Shown: in pieces, positions 1-6,725 of the stretch | Position numbering within the stretch: the stretch's first letter is position 1 | How the letters are laid out: each line of letters begins with the position of its first letter | Assembly: GCA_017991835.1 (NCBI GenBank) | Contig: JAGOPY010000010.1 | Coordinates: 62,001 to 126,000, forward strand | DNA from: Bacteroidales bacterium | GTDB lineage: Bacteria > Bacteroidota > Bacteroidia > Bacteroidales > JAGOPY01 | DNA: 64,000 bases | Direction of reading: 5' to 3' | Translations under genes and position numbers: made by a program | Notes under the pieces: model-generated | Database searches by the model: none | Told to the model about the DNA's origin: nothing | Seen by the model: the letters and a program-made list of their open reading frames with translations, nothing else

Positions 1-173
1 ATGAATTTTCAAGGCTGAGGGATTTCCTGGCGACCTCAATCAAAGTAAGCCGTCCTGAATTGCAGTATGTTGTTTTGCAGGATGGAGGACATTTGAAAGA
101 TCATGTCCTGGCCGATTTCGGGCCGGAGGTGTGGGAAGATTTCCAGACATCTTTCCTTGACAAAGCAAGGTAA
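1..173 (+). CDS. C-terminal end of a GcvH-like protein (5' end outside window)
   Basis: An open frame runs from position 3 to the TAA at 171-173 and gives 56 residues with no start inside the window. The tail (RLRDFLATS, then QDGGHLKDHVL and WEDFQTSFLDKAR) lines up with the tail of the protein at 2348-3067 (RFKDFLAKS, QEGGEIMAGSL, WVEFQEEFL). I therefore read it as a second copy of the same membrane-anchored GcvH-like family. It ends 43 bases before the Fe-S subunit gene, so it is probably in the same operon. Only the C-terminal helix region is visible; the lipoyl-type domain itself is not. Similarity to the paralogue is seen directly, the function is inferred. Confidence 0.6.
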   Translation, partial: EFSRLRDFLATSIKVSRPELQYVVLQDGGHLKDHVLADFGPEVWEDFQTSFLDKAR

Positions 174-216
174 TCACAGGTAAATAATATAGTTTCATCA
201 TTATATTACACCCATT

Positions 217-1092
217 ATGCCAATTGACAGACGAAATTTTTTCAAGGTACTGGGGGTTACAGGCGTAGCGCTGGCCACCGGGAAAAAATTAAACGCCGCC
301 ACAACAGAGGCAGCAAAAGATGCGCCGCCGGAAGAATTCATGGGGGTGCTTTACGATGCCAGCCGCTGTGTCGGATGCCAGAGCTGCGAGTATGCCTGTG
401 CGGCGGCGCACAACCTTCCTGAGCCCGCCGATTCGCCGGAAGCGGGGATCATCCGCAAGGCGAGCGAAACACAGCAGAATGTGATCAATTTGTACAACAC
501 GTCGAAAGGGGAGGTTTACGTCAAGCAGCAGTGCATGCATTGCAACTCGCCTGCCTGTGCTTCGGCCTGCCTGACGAATGCCATGCATAAAAACCATACC
601 GGGCCGGTGATCTGGCGGGGCAATAAATGCATGGGGTGCCGTTATTGCATGGTTTCCTGCCCGTTTGATATTCCTAAATTCGAATATCACAGCCCCAATC
701 CGGAAATCAGGAAATGCGACATGTGCTTTGACCGGCTTAAGGAAGGCCTTATGCCCGCCTGTGTTACCGAATGCCCGGCCGAAGCCCTGATGTTCGGAAC
801 ACGGAGAGAGATGATCAAAGAGGCCAGGAGGAGGATCCACGACAATCCCGATGTTTACCACGATCACATTTACGGAGAGCATGAAGCAGGCGGCACAGGA
901 TTCCTCTACCTTTCTCCCGTCCCTTTTGAAGAACTTGGATTCAATACCTCCATCCAGAACTCCTCCTATCCCGAATTATCCAAAGGGTTCCTCTACAGCG
1001 TCCCCACCATTTTCGTTCTCTGGCCGGCCATTTTGCTTGGAATAAGAGAAGCTACAAAAGATAAACCTTTAAATGAAGAGAGCCATGATTAA
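217..1092 (+). CDS. Tat-exported 4x[4Fe-4S] ferredoxin subunit, HybA/HmcB-like
   Basis: A 291-residue electron-transfer subunit of the DmsB/HybA family. Residues 5-13 (RRNFFKVLG) are a twin-arginine signal, so the folded protein should reach the periplasm. Four cysteine groups follow: 51-61 (CxxCxxCxxxC), 106-118, 138-148 and 167-186, enough for four [4Fe-4S] clusters. A hydrophobic stretch near residues 258-276 would anchor the C-terminus in the membrane, as in HybA. The next gene, an NrfD/HybB-like membrane protein, overlaps its end, which is the usual pairing: the Fe-S subunit passes electrons to or from quinone through the membrane subunit. No hydrogenase or other catalytic subunit is in the window, so the electron donor is unknown. 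The gene could belong to a NiFe-hydrogenase, a cytochrome-c-linked or a sulfur-compound complex. Confidence 0.88.
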   Translation: MPIDRRNFFKVLGVTGVALATGKKLNAATTEAAKDAPPEEFMGVLYDASRCVGCQSCEYACAAAHNLPEPADSPEAGIIRKASETQQNVINLYNTSKGEVYVKQQCMHCNSPACASACLTNAMHKNHTGPVIWRGNKCMGCRYCMVSCPFDIPKFEYHSPNPEIRKCDMCFDRLKEGLMPACVTECPAEALMFGTRREMIKEARRRIHDNPDVYHDHIYGEHEAGGTGFLYLSPVPFEELGFNTSIQNSSYPELSKGFLYSVPTIFVLWPAILLGIREATKDKPLNEESHD

Positions 1093-2311
1093 AGGCGAAT
1101 ATACTTTGGAAGCCGACCGGCAAAAAGAGGGTTTCTGGAAATTTATCCTGAAAGAGATGAAACCCAGGGGTAAGATTTTCACCCCATTCAATATTATTTC
1201 ACTTCCGATCATGCTGACCGGATTGGTGCTTATCGTCATCCGGTTCTGGAAAGGGATCGGATCGGTAACGAACCTGACGCAGGAGGTCCCGTGGGGGCTC
1301 TGGATCGGGTTTGATGTGGTCACGGGCGTGGCTTTTGCAGGTGGCGCCTACGTACTGACCTTCATGGTCTACATCCTGAACATGAAGAAATACCATTCAA
1401 TCGTAAGGGTAACCGTTTTAAACGGATTCCTGGCTTACGTATTTTATGCCGGCGCATTGCTGCTGGATCTCGGAAGGCCCTGGAACGTGATCAATCCGAT
1501 CATCGGTAACGACTTCGGGTACAGTTCGGTATTGTTCCTGGTCGCCTGGCATTTCCTGCTTTACATGCTTGCACAACTGATCGAGTTTTCGCCTGCCATA
1601 GCCGAATGGCTGGGGGCCAGGCGGGCACATAGGATCCTTTCGGGGATGACTATTGCGGCCGTCATTTTCGGTATTACCCTGTCGACGTTGCACCAGTCGG
1701 GTCTCGGTGCGCTTTACCTCATGGCGAAAGAAAAGATCCACCCGCTTTGGTACAACGAATTCATCCCGATCATGTTTTTTGTCAGCAGCATCTTTGCGGG
1801 ATTGTCGCTGGTCATTTTTGAGGGATCCATCAGTCATAAGGTATTCTTTCACCAGATCAGTGAGCCGAACCGTAAAGCCCATCACGGCATTGTGATCGGG
1901 TTGTCGAAGATATGCGCAGTGGCAATGTTTGCATATTTCTTCCTGCAGATCCTGATATTTGTGCACGGGCAGCGGTGGGAATACCTTGGAACCCCCATGG
2001 GATACTGGTACCTGGTAGAAATGATCGGTTTCGTTCTGTTCCCGATGCTGTTGTTTTTCACCAGCTATCGCCGGCACAATGCCTTACTGGTAAAGATTGC
2101 CGCTATTATCACCATTCTGGGGATTATCATTAATCGTTTGAATGTGACTGTTATCGGTTTCAAATGGAATTTAGAACCTCATTATTTCCCGTCCTGGATG
2201 GAGATCGTGGTGACACTGGCGGTCATTTTCACGGAGATCTGGATATTCCGGTGGATCATCAACCGGATGCCGGTCCTCAGGGATTCCCCGGAATGGGCTA
2301 AAAATCATTGA
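1073..2311 (+). CDS. NrfD/HybB-family quinone-interacting membrane subunit
   Basis: A 412-residue integral membrane protein with about ten hydrophobic segments (roughly residues 40-60, 88-106, 118-138, 155-178, 193-212, 230-250, 275-297, 315-335, 342-360 and 378-398). It matches the NrfD/PsrC/HybB family in length and pattern. Such proteins exchange electrons between a periplasmic Fe-S subunit and menaquinone. The ATG at 1073 overlaps the upstream Fe-S gene by 20 bases; an ATG at 1085 is also in frame and would leave an 8-base overlap. Either way the two genes are translationally coupled. It is followed after 36 bases by the GcvH-like gene. The family assignment is firm; the electron donor or acceptor is not visible. 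Confidence 0.87.
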   Translation: MKRAMIKGEYTLEADRQKEGFWKFILKEMKPRGKIFTPFNIISLPIMLTGLVLIVIRFWKGIGSVTNLTQEVPWGLWIGFDVVTGVAFAGGAYVLTFMVYILNMKKYHSIVRVTVLNGFLAYVFYAGALLLDLGRPWNVINPIIGNDFGYSSVLFLVAWHFLLYMLAQLIEFSPAIAEWLGARRAHRILSGMTIAAVIFGITLSTLHQSGLGALYLMAKEKIHPLWYNEFIPIMFFVSSIFAGLSLVIFEGSISHKVFFHQISEPNRKAHHGIVIGLSKICAVAMFAYFFLQILIFVHGQRWEYLGTPMGYWYLVEMIGFVLFPMLLFFTSYRRHNALLVKIAAIITILGIIINRLNVTVIGFKWNLEPHYFPSWMEIVVTLAVIFTEIWIFRWIINRMPVLRDSPEWAKNH

Positions 2312-2347
2312 GAAACAATTCATTAATTAATCTTAAAAAAATATAAG

Positions 2348-3067
2348 ATGGACGGTTTTACTTATCATGATATTTTTCAGACCAAGGGTATAGAATATAT
2401 CATCATTATTCTGTTCCTGCTGTTGCTGATCCCTTTCTGGATCATCATCAATAAAAATGACTACCTGAAAACAAAGATCAAAAAGGCCGTCAGGTTTTTG
2501 ACCAGGGATACATTGCGGGTGCCCCGCGGGGTTTTCATCAGTCCGATGCATACCTGGGCATTCATGGAAAAATCGGGCATGGCAAAGATTGGTCCTGATG
2601 ATCTCCTGGCTCTTCTGGCCGGAGAAGTTGACCTGGAATTTTTGAAGAAGCCCGGGGAAGAAGTCAAAAGAGGGGATTTGATCGCAGAAGTCGGTGTGGG
2701 CGGAAAAAAACTGCAGATCATTTCTCCGGTTTCGGGTACGATAAGCCGGCCGAATCATTCACTCGCCGAACAGAGACATTTGTTTGCGGATGATCCGTAC
2801 GGGCAAGGGTGGATATATGAGATCAGTCCATCGGCCTGGAAAGAAGAAACGAATAGTTACCGGCTGGGTGAAGAGGCGGTAAGCTGGACGTACGGAGAGC
2901 TGGACCGTTTCAAGGATTTCCTGGCAAAGTCGATGGTCCGTCACTCACTCGCTGGCAAAGGGATCATCCTGCAGGAGGGAGGTGAAATTATGGCCGGCTC
3001 ACTGGCAGAGATGCCTGAACAGATCTGGGTTGAGTTTCAGGAAGAGTTTTTAAGCGATCATCATTAA
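2348..3067 (+). CDS. Membrane-anchored GcvH-like (lipoyl-domain fold) protein
   Basis: A 239-residue protein with one hydrophobic segment at about residues 15-37 and a GcvH-like domain after it. Recognisable GcvH landmarks are HTW near residue 74 (HEW in GcvH), PGEEVKRGD near 103, the hairpin region ending ISPVSG (125-130), and YGQGWIYEISPS. In GcvH the lipoylated lysine lies eleven residues before the last G of SPVSG. Here that place is Gly119, and lysines sit next to it at 120 and 121. Lipoylation is therefore uncertain. It has a helical tail similar to the cut-off protein at 1-173. It cannot be an ordinary glycine-cleavage H protein, because no gcvT or gcvP is near and it is membrane-bound. 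A structural or carrier role in the neighbouring redox complex is inference. Confidence 0.75.
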   Translation: MDGFTYHDIFQTKGIEYIIIILFLLLLIPFWIIINKNDYLKTKIKKAVRFLTRDTLRVPRGVFISPMHTWAFMEKSGMAKIGPDDLLALLAGEVDLEFLKKPGEEVKRGDLIAEVGVGGKKLQIISPVSGTISRPNHSLAEQRHLFADDPYGQGWIYEISPSAWKEETNSYRLGEEAVSWTYGELDRFKDFLAKSMVRHSLAGKGIILQEGGEIMAGSLAEMPEQIWVEFQEEFLSDHH

Positions 3068-3153: not shown

Positions 3154-4824
3154 ATGATAAAAAAGGGGGCCTTTAAGTCCGTTTTACCCGTCAGAATCAA
3201 AATAGGGTCATCTATATACACACGTGTGGTCATCATAATTGCCGCAATGTCTGTCATATTGTTTGCCTCGTTTAGTATTATTTTCCGTTCTGTCAATCAC
3301 AAATATCTGAATTCGGTTATTGTACAGAACGGGCACAATGTCGGTTCGATTGTAAAAGGTGCGCTGTATCAATCGATGCTGGCGAATGATGAAACCTCTC
3401 TTCAGCAGACCCTGGATGCGATCCACTCGATATCGGGTATTGATGAGGTTAATCTTTATAATAACCGGAACGACCTGATCTATTCGGTTTTTTCATCGGA
3501 GATTGCCGACAGGGGAAATCCCGATTGCATAACGTGTCATGAAGATTTCAGCGGGATGTTTTCCAAAACCGAGATATCTTACAAGATCATCGACAAGAAG
3601 AGTTTATGTACGATGAACCAAACCATTAAAGGGTACCGGCAATTGCTTATCAGTTCCCCTATTCTGAACGAAAAGACCTGTTATACGGCAGATTGTCATG
3701 CCCACCAGGCGAATGAAACTTTTCTCGGTTCCTTGCTGATCAAGGTTCCGTTGACAGAACTGGATTCAACAGTCAGCAAATCATCAGCCCGTTTTGTTTT
3801 CTTTTCTATCCTTTCGACCCTGATCATGGCCACGATACTGATCATTTTCACCCGGAAAAGGATCAAGAAGCCGCTGAATGAGATCATCCTTGCCAGCGAG
3901 GCTGTCGGGAAGGGAAACACTTCTGTCAGGCTTGAAATTGACAAGAATGAGCTGGATGATATCAAAGTTGTATCGAAAGCTTTTAATGACATGCTGGATA
4001 AAATCCAGGCGTCGACCAAAGAATTACAAAACTGGTCGCACCAGCTGGAGTATAAGATCCAGAAAAAATCGGAGGAGTTGCTGGAAGCACAGAACGAGCT
4101 GATCCAGATAGAGAAGATTGCTTCGCTGGGGAAATTGTCGTCTTCTGTTGCACACGAGATAAACAACCCGCTTGCCGGAGTTCTGACTTATACAAAACTG
4201 GTATCCAAACAATTGGGGAAGGCGGACATGGATGAGAATGCCAGGCAGTCGATTCAGAAGCATTTGAAAGTGATTGAAACGGAAACCAAGCGATGCGGGG
4301 ATATTGTCAAAGGGTTGCTGGATTTTTCAAGGAAGGACCAGGAAAATTTCTCCAACCGTCATCTAAATGAAGTTTTGCAGGAGACTCACAACCTGATGGC
4401 CCACCAGATGAAGGTCGAGAATATTCAGTTCACTACTGATTTTGCGGCGTCTAACGATGTGGTATCGTGCGTGGAGAACCAGATCAAGCAAGCGTGTATC
4501 GCTATCCTGGTCAATGCTTCGGAGGCGGTCAGCGAAAACGGCGATGTGGCTGTCCGCACTTTCAATCCTGACGGGGAGCATATCCGGATTGAGATCACCG
4601 ACAACGGCACCGGAATTGCCCCGGATGATATTCCGCACATTTTCGAACCGTTTTTCTCAGCCAAGAACAAATCGAGCGGCATCGGACTGGGACTTTCCAT
4701 TGCACATGGCATTGTGTTAAATCATAAAGGGCGGATCGAGGTCGATTCCCGGCTGGGAAGCGGCACCAAAATTTCAATTATCCTGCCTTTAGCAAACCTT
4801 GAAGGAAAAGATCATGACCGGTAA
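3154..4824 (+). CDS. Sensor histidine kinase with periplasmic c-type haem motifs
   Basis: A 556-residue membrane kinase. A transmembrane segment at about residues 25-46 is followed by a periplasmic region holding a CXXCH haem-c motif at 125-129 (CITCH) and a CX4CH motif at 176-182 (CYTADCH). A second membrane segment lies near 212-232. HAMP follows (about 233-285), then a coiled stretch, a HisKA domain with His334 in SSSVAHEINNPLAG, and HATPase_c with DNGTGIAP and GIGLGLSIAHG. It should sense redox state or a gas through covalently bound haem and phosphorylate the regulator that follows. The stop overlaps the start of the next gene by 11 bases. It lies 86 bases after the redox module, so it probably controls it. 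Haem attachment is predicted from the motifs only. Confidence 0.88.
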   Translation: MIKKGAFKSVLPVRIKIGSSIYTRVVIIIAAMSVILFASFSIIFRSVNHKYLNSVIVQNGHNVGSIVKGALYQSMLANDETSLQQTLDAIHSISGIDEVNLYNNRNDLIYSVFSSEIADRGNPDCITCHEDFSGMFSKTEISYKIIDKKSLCTMNQTIKGYRQLLISSPILNEKTCYTADCHAHQANETFLGSLLIKVPLTELDSTVSKSSARFVFFSILSTLIMATILIIFTRKRIKKPLNEIILASEAVGKGNTSVRLEIDKNELDDIKVVSKAFNDMLDKIQASTKELQNWSHQLEYKIQKKSEELLEAQNELIQIEKIASLGKLSSSVAHEINNPLAGVLTYTKLVSKQLGKADMDENARQSIQKHLKVIETETKRCGDIVKGLLDFSRKDQENFSNRHLNEVLQETHNLMAHQMKVENIQFTTDFAASNDVVSCVENQIKQACIAILVNASEAVSENGDVAVRTFNPDGEHIRIEITDNGTGIAPDDIPHIFEPFFSAKNKSSGIGLGLSIAHGIVLNHKGRIEVDSRLGSGTKISIILPLANLEGKDHDR

Positions 4825-6154
4825 AATTTCTATATTGATTGTGGATGATGAAGAATCGGTAAGGGATTCGCTGTACAACTGGTTTATCGAAGACGGTTAT
4901 CATGTGGAGTGCGCGGCCAATGCCAAAGAGGCGTTGAACCTGATCGAGCAGAAGGATTTCAGCATTGTGCTGGCAGATTTGAAGATGCCGGGGATGGACG
5001 GGCTGGAGATGCAGCGGCGGATCAAAACCCTGAACCCGGAGGCGATCGTCATCATTATGACGGCCTTTGCTACCGTCGATTCGGCGGTGCGGGCATTAAA
5101 AGACGGCGCATTCGACTACATCACCAAGCCATTTGACCCGGATGACCTGTCGCACCTGATCCGCAATGCTTCGAAGCAGATTATGCTAAAGGCCGAAAAT
5201 GATGCCCTGAGAGATAAAATTGTATCTCTTGAGAATATCGATGATATTATTGGCACCAGCCCGGCAATGCTCCAGGTATTAAAAGAAGTGGAGAGTGTGG
5301 CGCAGAGCAATGCTTCCGTCATCATCACAGGCGAAAGCGGTACCGGGAAAGAATTGATAGCCAGGGCCATACATGCAAATTCATCCAGGCGCTATTTTCC
5401 CCTGGTGAGTGTGCATTGCGGGGCGTTGACGGAGAGTTTGCTGGAAAGCGAGTTATTCGGGCATGAGAAAGGGGCTTTTACGGGTGCGATGTACAACCGG
5501 AAAGGGCGGTTTGAGATGGCTGACGGCGGCACGATCTTTCTCGACGAGATTGCCACTGTTTCGATGAAAATGCAGATTGAGCTTTTACGGGTCCTGGAGA
5601 CCAGGAGTTTTATGCGGGTAGGCGGCAACAAGGAGATTTCCAGTGATTTCCGGGTAATCTGTGCAACGAACCGCGATCTGAAGGCGATGGTCGGGAACGG
5701 AACTTTCAGGGAAGATCTTTATTACAGGCTGAATGTCGTGGGGATCCATGTGCCTCCTTTGCGGGAACGCCCGGAAGATATACCTCTTTTAGCGGAATAT
5801 TTCATAAAGAAGTATTGCCGGTCGATGAGCCGCGATGTGATCCCGATTGAACCGGCAGCCCTGAAGCGTTTGCAGGAGTTTGATTTTCCGGGGAATGTGA
5901 GGGAGCTGGAGAATATGATCGAAAGAGCTATTGTGGTGGGTAACGGAAAAGAGATACGGGTAAAAGATCTGCCCCTGGGCCGGGAAGTTTCCACGGCCAG
6001 CACTGCCGAGAGCCTCGAAGAGCAGGAGAAGAAACACATTGTACAGATTCTGACACGTTACGACTGGAATATTTCGCGCGCAGCCAAAGCCCTTCAGATC
6101 GACAGGGTGACACTTTACAACAAAATCAGGAAATATGATTTAAACCAGGAGTAA
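4814..6154 (+). CDS. NtrC-type sigma-54 response regulator
   Basis: A 446-residue activator using the ATG at 4814; a TTG at 4799 would add five residues. The ATG overlaps the kinase stop by 11 bases. The receiver domain at about 5-120 has acidic residues 11-12 and the phosphorylation site Asp55 in LADLKMPGMDG. The AAA+ domain carries Walker A (GESGTGKE), the sigma-54 contact loop GAFTGA and the DGGTIFLDEI Walker B region. A Fis-type helix-turn-helix lies at the C-terminus (RAAKALQIDRVTLYNKI). It should turn on sigma-54 promoters when phosphorylated by the haem-motif kinase. I looked for a -24/-12 site (TGGC-N8-TTGC) in front of the genes of this cluster that lie in the window and saw none; the likely target promoter lies upstream of the window. 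Confidence 0.93.
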   Translation: MTGKISILIVDDEESVRDSLYNWFIEDGYHVECAANAKEALNLIEQKDFSIVLADLKMPGMDGLEMQRRIKTLNPEAIVIIMTAFATVDSAVRALKDGAFDYITKPFDPDDLSHLIRNASKQIMLKAENDALRDKIVSLENIDDIIGTSPAMLQVLKEVESVAQSNASVIITGESGTGKELIARAIHANSSRRYFPLVSVHCGALTESLLESELFGHEKGAFTGAMYNRKGRFEMADGGTIFLDEIATVSMKMQIELLRVLETRSFMRVGGNKEISSDFRVICATNRDLKAMVGNGTFREDLYYRLNVVGIHVPPLRERPEDIPLLAEYFIKKYCRSMSRDVIPIEPAALKRLQEFDFPGNVRELENMIERAIVVGNGKEIRVKDLPLGREVSTASTAESLEEQEKKHIVQILTRYDWNISRAAKALQIDRVTLYNKIRKYDLNQE

Positions 6155-6170: not shown

Positions 6171-6725
6171 GTGCAGAATATCAGCCTGATATCATACGGT
6201 TATTTTGATAAAGCCTTACTTGACAGGATTGCAGAGAACATTTCGCAGGAATTTCAAAGCCAGGTGGAACTCCGGGAGGGGCACCTTGACCTGAGCCTGT
6301 ATTATGATCCGGGGAGGAGGCAATATAACGGGACCCGTTTACTGGAGGTTGTGGATAAGCTTCCCCTGGAATCCTCGTATAAGACCCTTGCCTTGTTCAA
6401 TGTTGACTTGTTCATCCCCATTCTGACCTATATTTTCGGCCAGGCTTACCTGGGAGGCAAGTCCGGCATCGTATCCTCTTATCGTTTAAGGAATGAGCTA
6501 TACGGCCTGAAGCAGGATGATAAGCTCCTGGCCGGCCGGATCATCAAAGTTTGTTTGCATGAACTGGGGCATATGCACGGGCTGGTGCACTGCAGCCAGC
6601 CGCAGTGCATCATGCGTTCGAGCACCTATGTGGAGGATATTGATTTGAAAGAGAGGTACTTCTGCGGGGAATGCAATGAGTTGTTAAAGAAGGCCCCAGG
6701 GGTATACGGAGATGGACACCCCTAG
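6171..6725 (+). CDS. amzA: Archaemetzincin-family zinc metalloprotease
   Basis: A 184-residue protein starting with GTG at 6171, 17 bases after the regulator. The archaemetzincin signature is complete: HELGHMHGLVHC gives the three zinc histidines and the first cysteine, then CIM, and after about 17 residues CGEC for a second structural zinc. It follows the pattern HExxHxxGxxHCxxxxCxM...CxxC. No signal peptide is seen, so it should be cytoplasmic. Its physiological substrate is not known for this family. The short distance to the sigma-54 regulator and the same strand suggest it is part of the same transcript, which is unexpected company for a peptidase. The TAG stop falls inside a short perfect inverted repeat shared with the convergent susD-like gene. 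Confidence 0.9.
   Translation: MQNISLISYGYFDKALLDRIAENISQEFQSQVELREGHLDLSLYYDPGRRQYNGTRLLEVVDKLPLESSYKTLALFNVDLFIPILTYIFGQAYLGGKSGIVSSYRLRNELYGLKQDDKLLAGRIIKVCLHELGHMHGLVHCSQPQCIMRSSTYVEDIDLKERYFCGECNELLKKAPGVYGDGHP

Follow-up and report, generated by a model that had tools for sequence, protein, structure and literature searches.

In a 64,000-nucleotide (nt) window of a Bacteroidales bacterium genome (GenBank assembly GCA_017991835.1, contig JAGOPY010000010.1, positions 62,001 to 126,000), we found a seven-gene unit encoding, in order, a long protein related to the glycine cleavage H protein (GcvH), an HmcB-like Fe-S protein, an HmcC-like membrane protein, a short GcvH-like protein, a histidine kinase, a sigma54-dependent regulator, and an archaemetzincin. 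Both GcvH-like proteins are membrane-anchored and belong to families without the lipoyl lysine. The whole gene string is one sigma54-driven operon, with gaps of -20, 36, 86, -26, and 16 nt from the HmcB-like gene through the archaemetzincin gene. An initial annotation had covered only the first four genes; these stand, but the kinase, the regulator, the archaemetzincin, and the fusion of a PstS-like domain, a transmembrane helix, and a GcvH-like domain in the long protein had been missed. These additions, together with receiver-GcvH fusions at other loci, favour a role in redox signalling over one in electron transfer only. We tentatively propose, with a confidence just short of even, that the non-lipoylated GcvH fold serves a quinone-redox module as an adaptor at its cytoplasmic face and is coupled to two-component signalling.

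A GcvH fold without the lipoyl lysine

The short GcvH-like protein scored 55.7 bits against the Pfam GCV_H profile (cut-off 22.2) and also matched GcvH crystal structures by sequence. Its AlphaFold2 model had a mean pLDDT of 84.8, and the best Foldseek matches were GcvH structures (TMt 0.86-0.89 in the top rows), which agrees with the lipoyl-domain fold suggested in the initial annotation. The membrane helix and the landmarks HTW, PGEEVKRGD, and SPVSG described there were recovered as well. The protein resembles GcvH in its fold and in the HTW and SPVSG landmarks. However, it has no lipoyl lysine, is anchored in the membrane, carries an additional C-terminal tail, belongs to a separate clade, and has no glycine-cleavage neighbours. 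The GcvH equivalog model TIGR00527 gave 37 bits against a cut-off of 115.85. The "GcvH-related protein" family of desulfobacteria (NF045810) was rejected as a home for the protein, as the score of 43 bits (cut-off 150) was no better than that of true GcvH. Weak Pfam matches to the barrel-sandwich domains of RnfC and NqrA were all below cut-off. These domains represent a related fold inside membrane redox complexes that carries no lipoate; unlike the proteins studied here, they are not membrane-anchored in this way or tied to two-component systems.

The carrier lysine of lipoyl, biotinyl, and H-protein domains lies eight residues before the proline of the second landmark. In the short protein this place is held by Gly119, followed by Lys120 and Lys121, and alignment to the lipoyl lysine of Thermus thermophilus GcvH upheld this earlier assignment. 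In the model, strands 111-117 and 120-125 are joined by a turn at residues 118-119. Glycine occupied the lipoyl position in all 79 long proteins in which this column is present and in 65 of the 72 short proteins. The following residue was lysine in 79/79 long proteins, making the GK pair invariant, and in 64/72 short proteins, the other eight having Arg, Asn, or Ile. In other members of the family, this second column held Gly or Glu (a type with an N-terminal Cys motif) or Arg, Glu, and other residues (receiver fusions). The glycine, too, is not maintained in these two types. The lipoyl position itself was lysine in seven of seven true GcvH proteins and was not lysine in the long, short, periplasmic-binding-protein (PBP)-less, and Cys-motif types. 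The domain tree placed true GcvH apart from all GcvH-like types (SH-aLRT 99), with weak inner forks. Given Gly119, the domain is unlikely to carry lipoyl as a covalently bound swinging arm. The initial annotation had offered "carrier or structural subunit"; the second fits better, since the lipoyl position is glycine and the adjacent lysine is not kept family-wide.

The ordinary GcvH of the genome is encoded on another contig (C25) and keeps its lysine (EAVKT). As noted earlier, glycine-cleavage genes are absent nearby: the P, T, and L proteins were not found in the cluster, and the P-protein was not found in the whole genome (assembly 76% complete).

Among 70 relatives, the net charge flanking the transmembrane helix of the short protein was -1.1 before and +4.0 after it; by this positive-inside pattern, the GcvH domain should face the cytoplasm. 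The tail following the domain is shared with the protein cut off at the start of the window (35% identity, E 1e-9, residues 184-235), so that, as first described, tail-sharing proteins flank the Fe-S/NrfD pair. Window positions 3-173 translate into the 56-amino-acid C-terminus of that long protein, and its full open reading frame (ORF) was read from DNA upstream of the window. The 572-amino-acid product consists of a signal peptide, a PstS-like periplasmic domain, a transmembrane helix, a cytoplasmic GcvH-like domain, and the family tail, with profile matches to GCV_H (E 1.3e-22) and, weakly, to PBP_like_2. In the model of the long protein of Sunxiuqinia, Foldseek matched the GcvH domain at TMt up to 0.95 and the N-terminal domain to PstS structures. 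Most long proteins have the PstS-like domain. A conserved DxNxNGxxDxxE loop within it resembles a calcium-binding loop (e.g., residues 225-236 of L084:8873-10540; L numbers denote individual loci).

Features of the operon, with window coordinates unless a locus or contig is named
Feature	Position	Strand	Basis or detail
Long GcvH-like protein, 3' end (tail only inside window)	1..173	+	whole gene L004:13455-15173 = G000:C9:60455-62173, 572 aa
HmcB-like periplasmic Fe-S protein, four-cluster HybA/HmcB type	217..1092	+	NF045715, 323 bits (cut-off 420)
HmcC-like NrfD-family quinone-site membrane protein	1073..2311	+	NF045714, 411 bits (cut-off 550); PF03916
Short membrane-anchored GcvH-like protein, 239 aa, whole gene	2348..3067	+	profile search, AlphaFold2, Foldseek
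Transmembrane helix of short protein, residues 9-36	2372..2455	+	AlphaFold2 helix; positive charges behind
GcvH-fold domain, residues 58-168	2519..2851	+	Pfam GCV_H; Foldseek to GcvH structures
Gly119 codon, lipoyl-lysine position	2702..2704	+	10 after Gly of KRGD, 8 before Pro of SPVSG
Lys120 codon	2705-2707	+	follows Gly119
Family-specific C-terminal tail, residues 175-235	2870..3052	+	common to long protein; absent from true GcvH
Sensor histidine kinase: periplasmic sensor, HAMP, HisKA, HATPase	3154..4824	+	profile search
Heme motif CITCH in kinase sensor	3526-3540	+	CxxCH in 76/76 relatives
Heme motif CYTADCH in kinase sensor	3679-3699	+	CxxxxCH in 74/76 relatives
NtrC-type sigma54-dependent response regulator: receiver, AAA+, Fis HTH	4799..6154	+	GAFTGA in 66/68 relatives
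Archaemetzincin (M54) zinc protease, complete metal motif	6171..6725	+	NF033823, 157 bits (cut-off 145)

The predicted redox module, the two-component system, and their promoter

The pair between the two GcvH-like genes had been described as HybA/HybB-like. The Fe-S and NrfD types of the two proteins were confirmed, but their nearest named families are HmcB and HmcC, with HybA and HybB only next, and all four scores fall under the curated cut-offs. The HmcB-like protein has a twin-arginine signal (RRxF in 73/76 relatives), 16-18 cysteines (76/76), and a C-terminal hydrophobic segment. The quinone-site residues of HybB are D109 and S129 (PMC8076601). D132 and S152 of the HmcC-like protein are conserved and, matched by spacing, have the same 20-residue separation. 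From its fold and this Asp/Ser pair, the HmcC-like protein is predicted to be a quinone-interacting subunit.

Like the Desulfovibrio Hmc complex (HmcABCDEF), the operon has the order HmcB, HmcC, small transmembrane protein, and the helix of the short protein matches HmcD weakly (E 0.0039). Unlike Hmc, it lacks the 16-heme HmcA as well as HmcE and HmcF, none of which was found in the operon, and it adds the GcvH folds, the PstS-like domain, the sigma54 regulator, and the archaemetzincin. A multiheme gene was absent from the own locus and from the retrieved Bacteroidales loci whose genes were read individually, except L111/L225. Hydrogenase-2 of Escherichia coli likewise combines a four-cluster twin-arginine Fe-S protein (HybA) with an NrfD-type protein (HybB), whereas the operon contains no hydrogenase subunits.

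The kinase carries CxxCH in its periplasmic sensor, as in c-type cytochrome sensor kinases, and is predicted to bind heme. With this kinase, the receiver, the AAA+ domain with GAFTGA, the sigma54 promoter, and the upstream dyads, all features of an NtrC-type two-component system are present. Sigma54 is encoded in the source genome. The metal motif of the archaemetzincin is kept in 64/68 relatives. Archaemetzincins are scantily characterised, and the Myxococcus homologue CarG is a regulator without protease activity (PMC3427221); by this analogy, a regulatory role of the operon's archaemetzincin is left open, though its protease motif is complete.

When the 300 nt upstream of each long gene and the first 150 nt of its longest ORF were searched, 66 of 73 genes had a -24/-12 element, TGGCA[CT]N5TTG, against an expectation of 0.1 by mononucleotide shuffling. 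The element was found before none of the 368 other genes in these clusters. The copy in the own locus lies at L004:13415, 1,586 nt before the window. The enterobacterial -12 box TTGCW performed poorly in the first sigma54 scan; TTGA is the form seen here. Upstream of the promoter, 65 of 72 loci contain dyads of the type TGTTGA-N5-TCAACA, a motif derived from the very loci used for the count, compared with 0.19 expected and 2 of 228 control stretches. The dyads cluster near -70, -90, -160, and -180 from the -24 element; those of the own locus are at L004:13252 and 13322. Because they are phased and all but absent from the controls, a chance origin appears improbable.

Across 26 genomes, the combined dyad and promoter pattern matched the operon's own promoter and just two other, unrelated loci. 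Within the limits of this strict pattern, the operon therefore appears to be its main target. These two, L223 and L224, were rejected as co-regulated loci, as their dyads read TGTAAA-N5-TTTACA and one adjoins its own regulator. A genome search with the sigma54 element only was too noisy for a regulon to be named.

Conservation and natural variants

From 250 relatives found in one scan of named genomes with a GcvH-like query, 80 were kept, all from Bacteroidota or unassigned bacteria, with one of them labelled Chlorobiota. All seven genes were present in 51 of the 57 loci having at least 8.5 kb downstream. As the initial annotation had expected, the GcvH-like gene co-occurs with HmcB/HybA-like and HmcC/NrfD-like genes in other genomes. 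Since this sample was drawn with a GcvH-like query, we ran an independent reverse test in which HmcC alone was sought in 295 Bacteroidales genomes and the tables were compared by hand. Each of the 30 genomes with an HmcC match above 550 bits had an adjoining GcvH-like gene; the next two matches (448 and 413 bits) belonged to formate dehydrogenase operons without one. HmcB/HmcC-type pairs in Bacteroidales formate dehydrogenase operons without GcvH are seen in L230 and L231.

The long-type gene occurred in 37 of the 295 genomes, seven of which had no HmcC of this clade. Five of the seven contain only the long gene, kinase, regulator, and archaemetzincin, with the PstS-like domain (L038, L226, L227) or without it (L039, L228). 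Of the remaining two, L225 is a cytochrome b variant with the same sequence as L111, and L229 is broken: a single ORF (L229:9404-10549) fuses the HmcB N-terminus to the kinase C-terminus, and HmcC and the short gene are missing, reflecting either a deletion or an assembly join. L058, L070, and L119 are likewise minimal loci of the long gene, kinase, regulator, and archaemetzincin, lacking HmcB and HmcC as L038 does. The PstS-like domain is absent, with the remainder kept, in L096, L108, L110, L114, and L121, and also in L039, which lacks HmcB and HmcC. L096 has two PBP-less long-type GcvH genes in tandem before HmcB (1150-2795). In L111 (10588-12866), a cytochrome b561 fused to a short-type GcvH domain and a 7-heme cytochrome replace HmcB and HmcC, the operon being standard in other respects. 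The heme-motif kinase is present as a tandem pair in L036, L043, L054, L060, L074, L088, and L091.

Receiver-GcvH fusions lie beside heme kinases and HmcB/HmcC in L145 (14038-16048), L146, L147, L150, and L152, with the GcvH fold in the place of a response regulator's output domain. L151:9332-10108 also encodes such a fusion, and most of these fusions adjoin HmcB/HmcC and multiheme cytochromes. Other Bacteroidota classes have two cluster types, one with transmembrane GcvH, HmcB, HmcC, Cys-motif GcvH, kinase, regulator, and archaemetzincin, and the other with a 13-heme cytochrome, a heme kinase, and receiver-GcvH proteins. The N-terminal motif of the Cys-motif type, CIWMxAGVVSYKLCDRxFxCxxCPFD, is possibly a metal site (L134:6550-7401; similar in L135-L138 and L141-L143).

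Proposed mechanism and its alternatives

In the mechanism we favour, HmcB and HmcC would make up a redox module that is linked to quinone and has no catalytic subunit, in which HmcC binds menaquinol and HmcB carries electrons on the periplasmic side and passes them to the hemes of the kinase. The two non-lipoylated GcvH-fold proteins would be anchored with the fold towards the cytoplasm. The short protein, encoded at the position of the HmcD gene, is probably a subunit of the module, while the long protein would contribute a sensor domain of PstS type on the periplasmic side. The GcvH fold would not carry lipoyl but act as an adaptor, through docking or conformation; it may signal to the heme-motif kinase what state the redox module (and the PstS-like ligand) is in, or the kinase may act on it. 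The kinase would then phosphorylate the NtrC-type regulator, which would bind the TGTTGA-N5-TCAACA-like dyads and drive the operon's own promoter. We infer the physical complex, the electron path to the kinase heme, the direction of signalling, and the dyads as the site of this regulator. A broader statement is possible but more doubtful: that a heme sensor kinase receives its input from a quinol/Fe-S (or cytochrome b/c) membrane module lacking a catalytic subunit, and that the de-lipoylated H-protein fold is a shared adaptor or output domain across Bacteroidota, linking quinone-redox modules, periplasmic ligand sensors, and receiver domains in a new redox-signalling class.

Several observations weigh against the adaptor mechanism. 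The kinase and regulator persist in the minimal loci without HmcB and HmcC, suggesting that HmcB/HmcC may be an added target of the system rather than its input. The likeness of the short protein's transmembrane helix to HmcD is weak, with matches at E<=0.1 for 16 of 54 short proteins and a best E of 0.002. The archaemetzincin has no explained role in the mechanism, and the loci are mostly metagenome assemblies that are mutually related.

The main rival is a conventional inducible respiratory operon, in which HmcB, HmcC, and the GcvH folds would form an electron-transfer complex between menaquinol and periplasmic cytochromes; the kinase and regulator would control expression only, and the GcvH folds would be structural, without signalling. 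We regard this as doubtful, though a serious contender: the quinone-site residues are retained, the dedicated sigma54 promoter suits an inducible enzyme, and related HmcB/HmcC pairs adjoin multiheme cytochromes (L145, L147, L152) or formate dehydrogenase. However, the usual operon has no catalytic or cytochrome subunit apart from the heme-motif kinase, receiver domains are fused to GcvH folds, and the kinase, regulator, protease, and GcvH protein persist in loci without the module. It is unlikely that the operon is primarily a ligand-sensing system, with the PstS-like domain signalling a periplasmic ligand across the membrane to the kinase and HmcB/HmcC as a secondary passenger. The prevalence of that domain among long proteins and the minimal loci would agree with such a system, but the PstS-less branches are nested inside the long clade and keep the remaining genes, implying that the ligand domain is dispensable.

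LarG of Pelobacter carbinolicus has been proposed as a lipoyl carrier near the Act complex, with a dihydrolipoamide dehydrogenase gene nearby (PMC3543383). It is the nearest idea to ours that we found, since there too the gene of a GcvH-like protein lies close to those of a membrane complex containing NrfD-type subunits, although here the lysine is gone and the cluster has no dihydrolipoamide dehydrogenase gene. By extension, the GcvH-like domain could be a genuine acyl carrier whose attachment site has shifted by one residue to Lys120 and which shuttles lipoate, or a group related to it, between the module and a partner in the cytoplasm. This reading would draw on the LarG precedent and on the frequent GK pair, but is highly improbable, as Lys120 lies one residue past the turn of the model and is replaced in eight short proteins, in the Cys-motif type, and in receiver fusions, and as the cluster lacks an E2/E3-type partner gene.

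Foldseek also matched the short protein to Streptococcus GcvH-L (5a35, E 5.6e-6). GcvH-L and LbpA-type proteins are GcvH paralogues outside glycine cleavage, as here, but they are lipoylated carriers; LbpA was set apart by its description. A review of NrfD-type proteins listing known complexes names no GcvH partner (PMC8076601). In the searchable literature, which covers few subscription journals, no paper paired GcvH or glycine cleavage with NrfD or Hmc, or archaemetzincin with NrfD. Nor does it describe a GcvH-like domain that has lost its attachment site and been reused in an operon, widespread in Bacteroidota, linking a predicted quinone-oxidising module to a predicted heme sensor kinase.

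If the proposal is correct, these bacteria would have a membrane redox module dedicated to sensing the menaquinone pool directly, and a carrier fold that is among the best known in metabolism would have found a second use. Its predictions (the dyad site, the promoter, the heme, and no lipoylation) are testable in the cultured strain Sunxiuqinia dokdonensis DH1. Many such proteins probably bear the database name glycine cleavage H, which may mislead annotation of glycine and lipoate metabolism. The operon also gives archaemetzincin proteases a fixed genomic home. In addition, stand-alone PstS-like proteins of 320-350 amino acids, close to the N-terminal domain of the long protein, are common in Bacteroidales (295 genomes).

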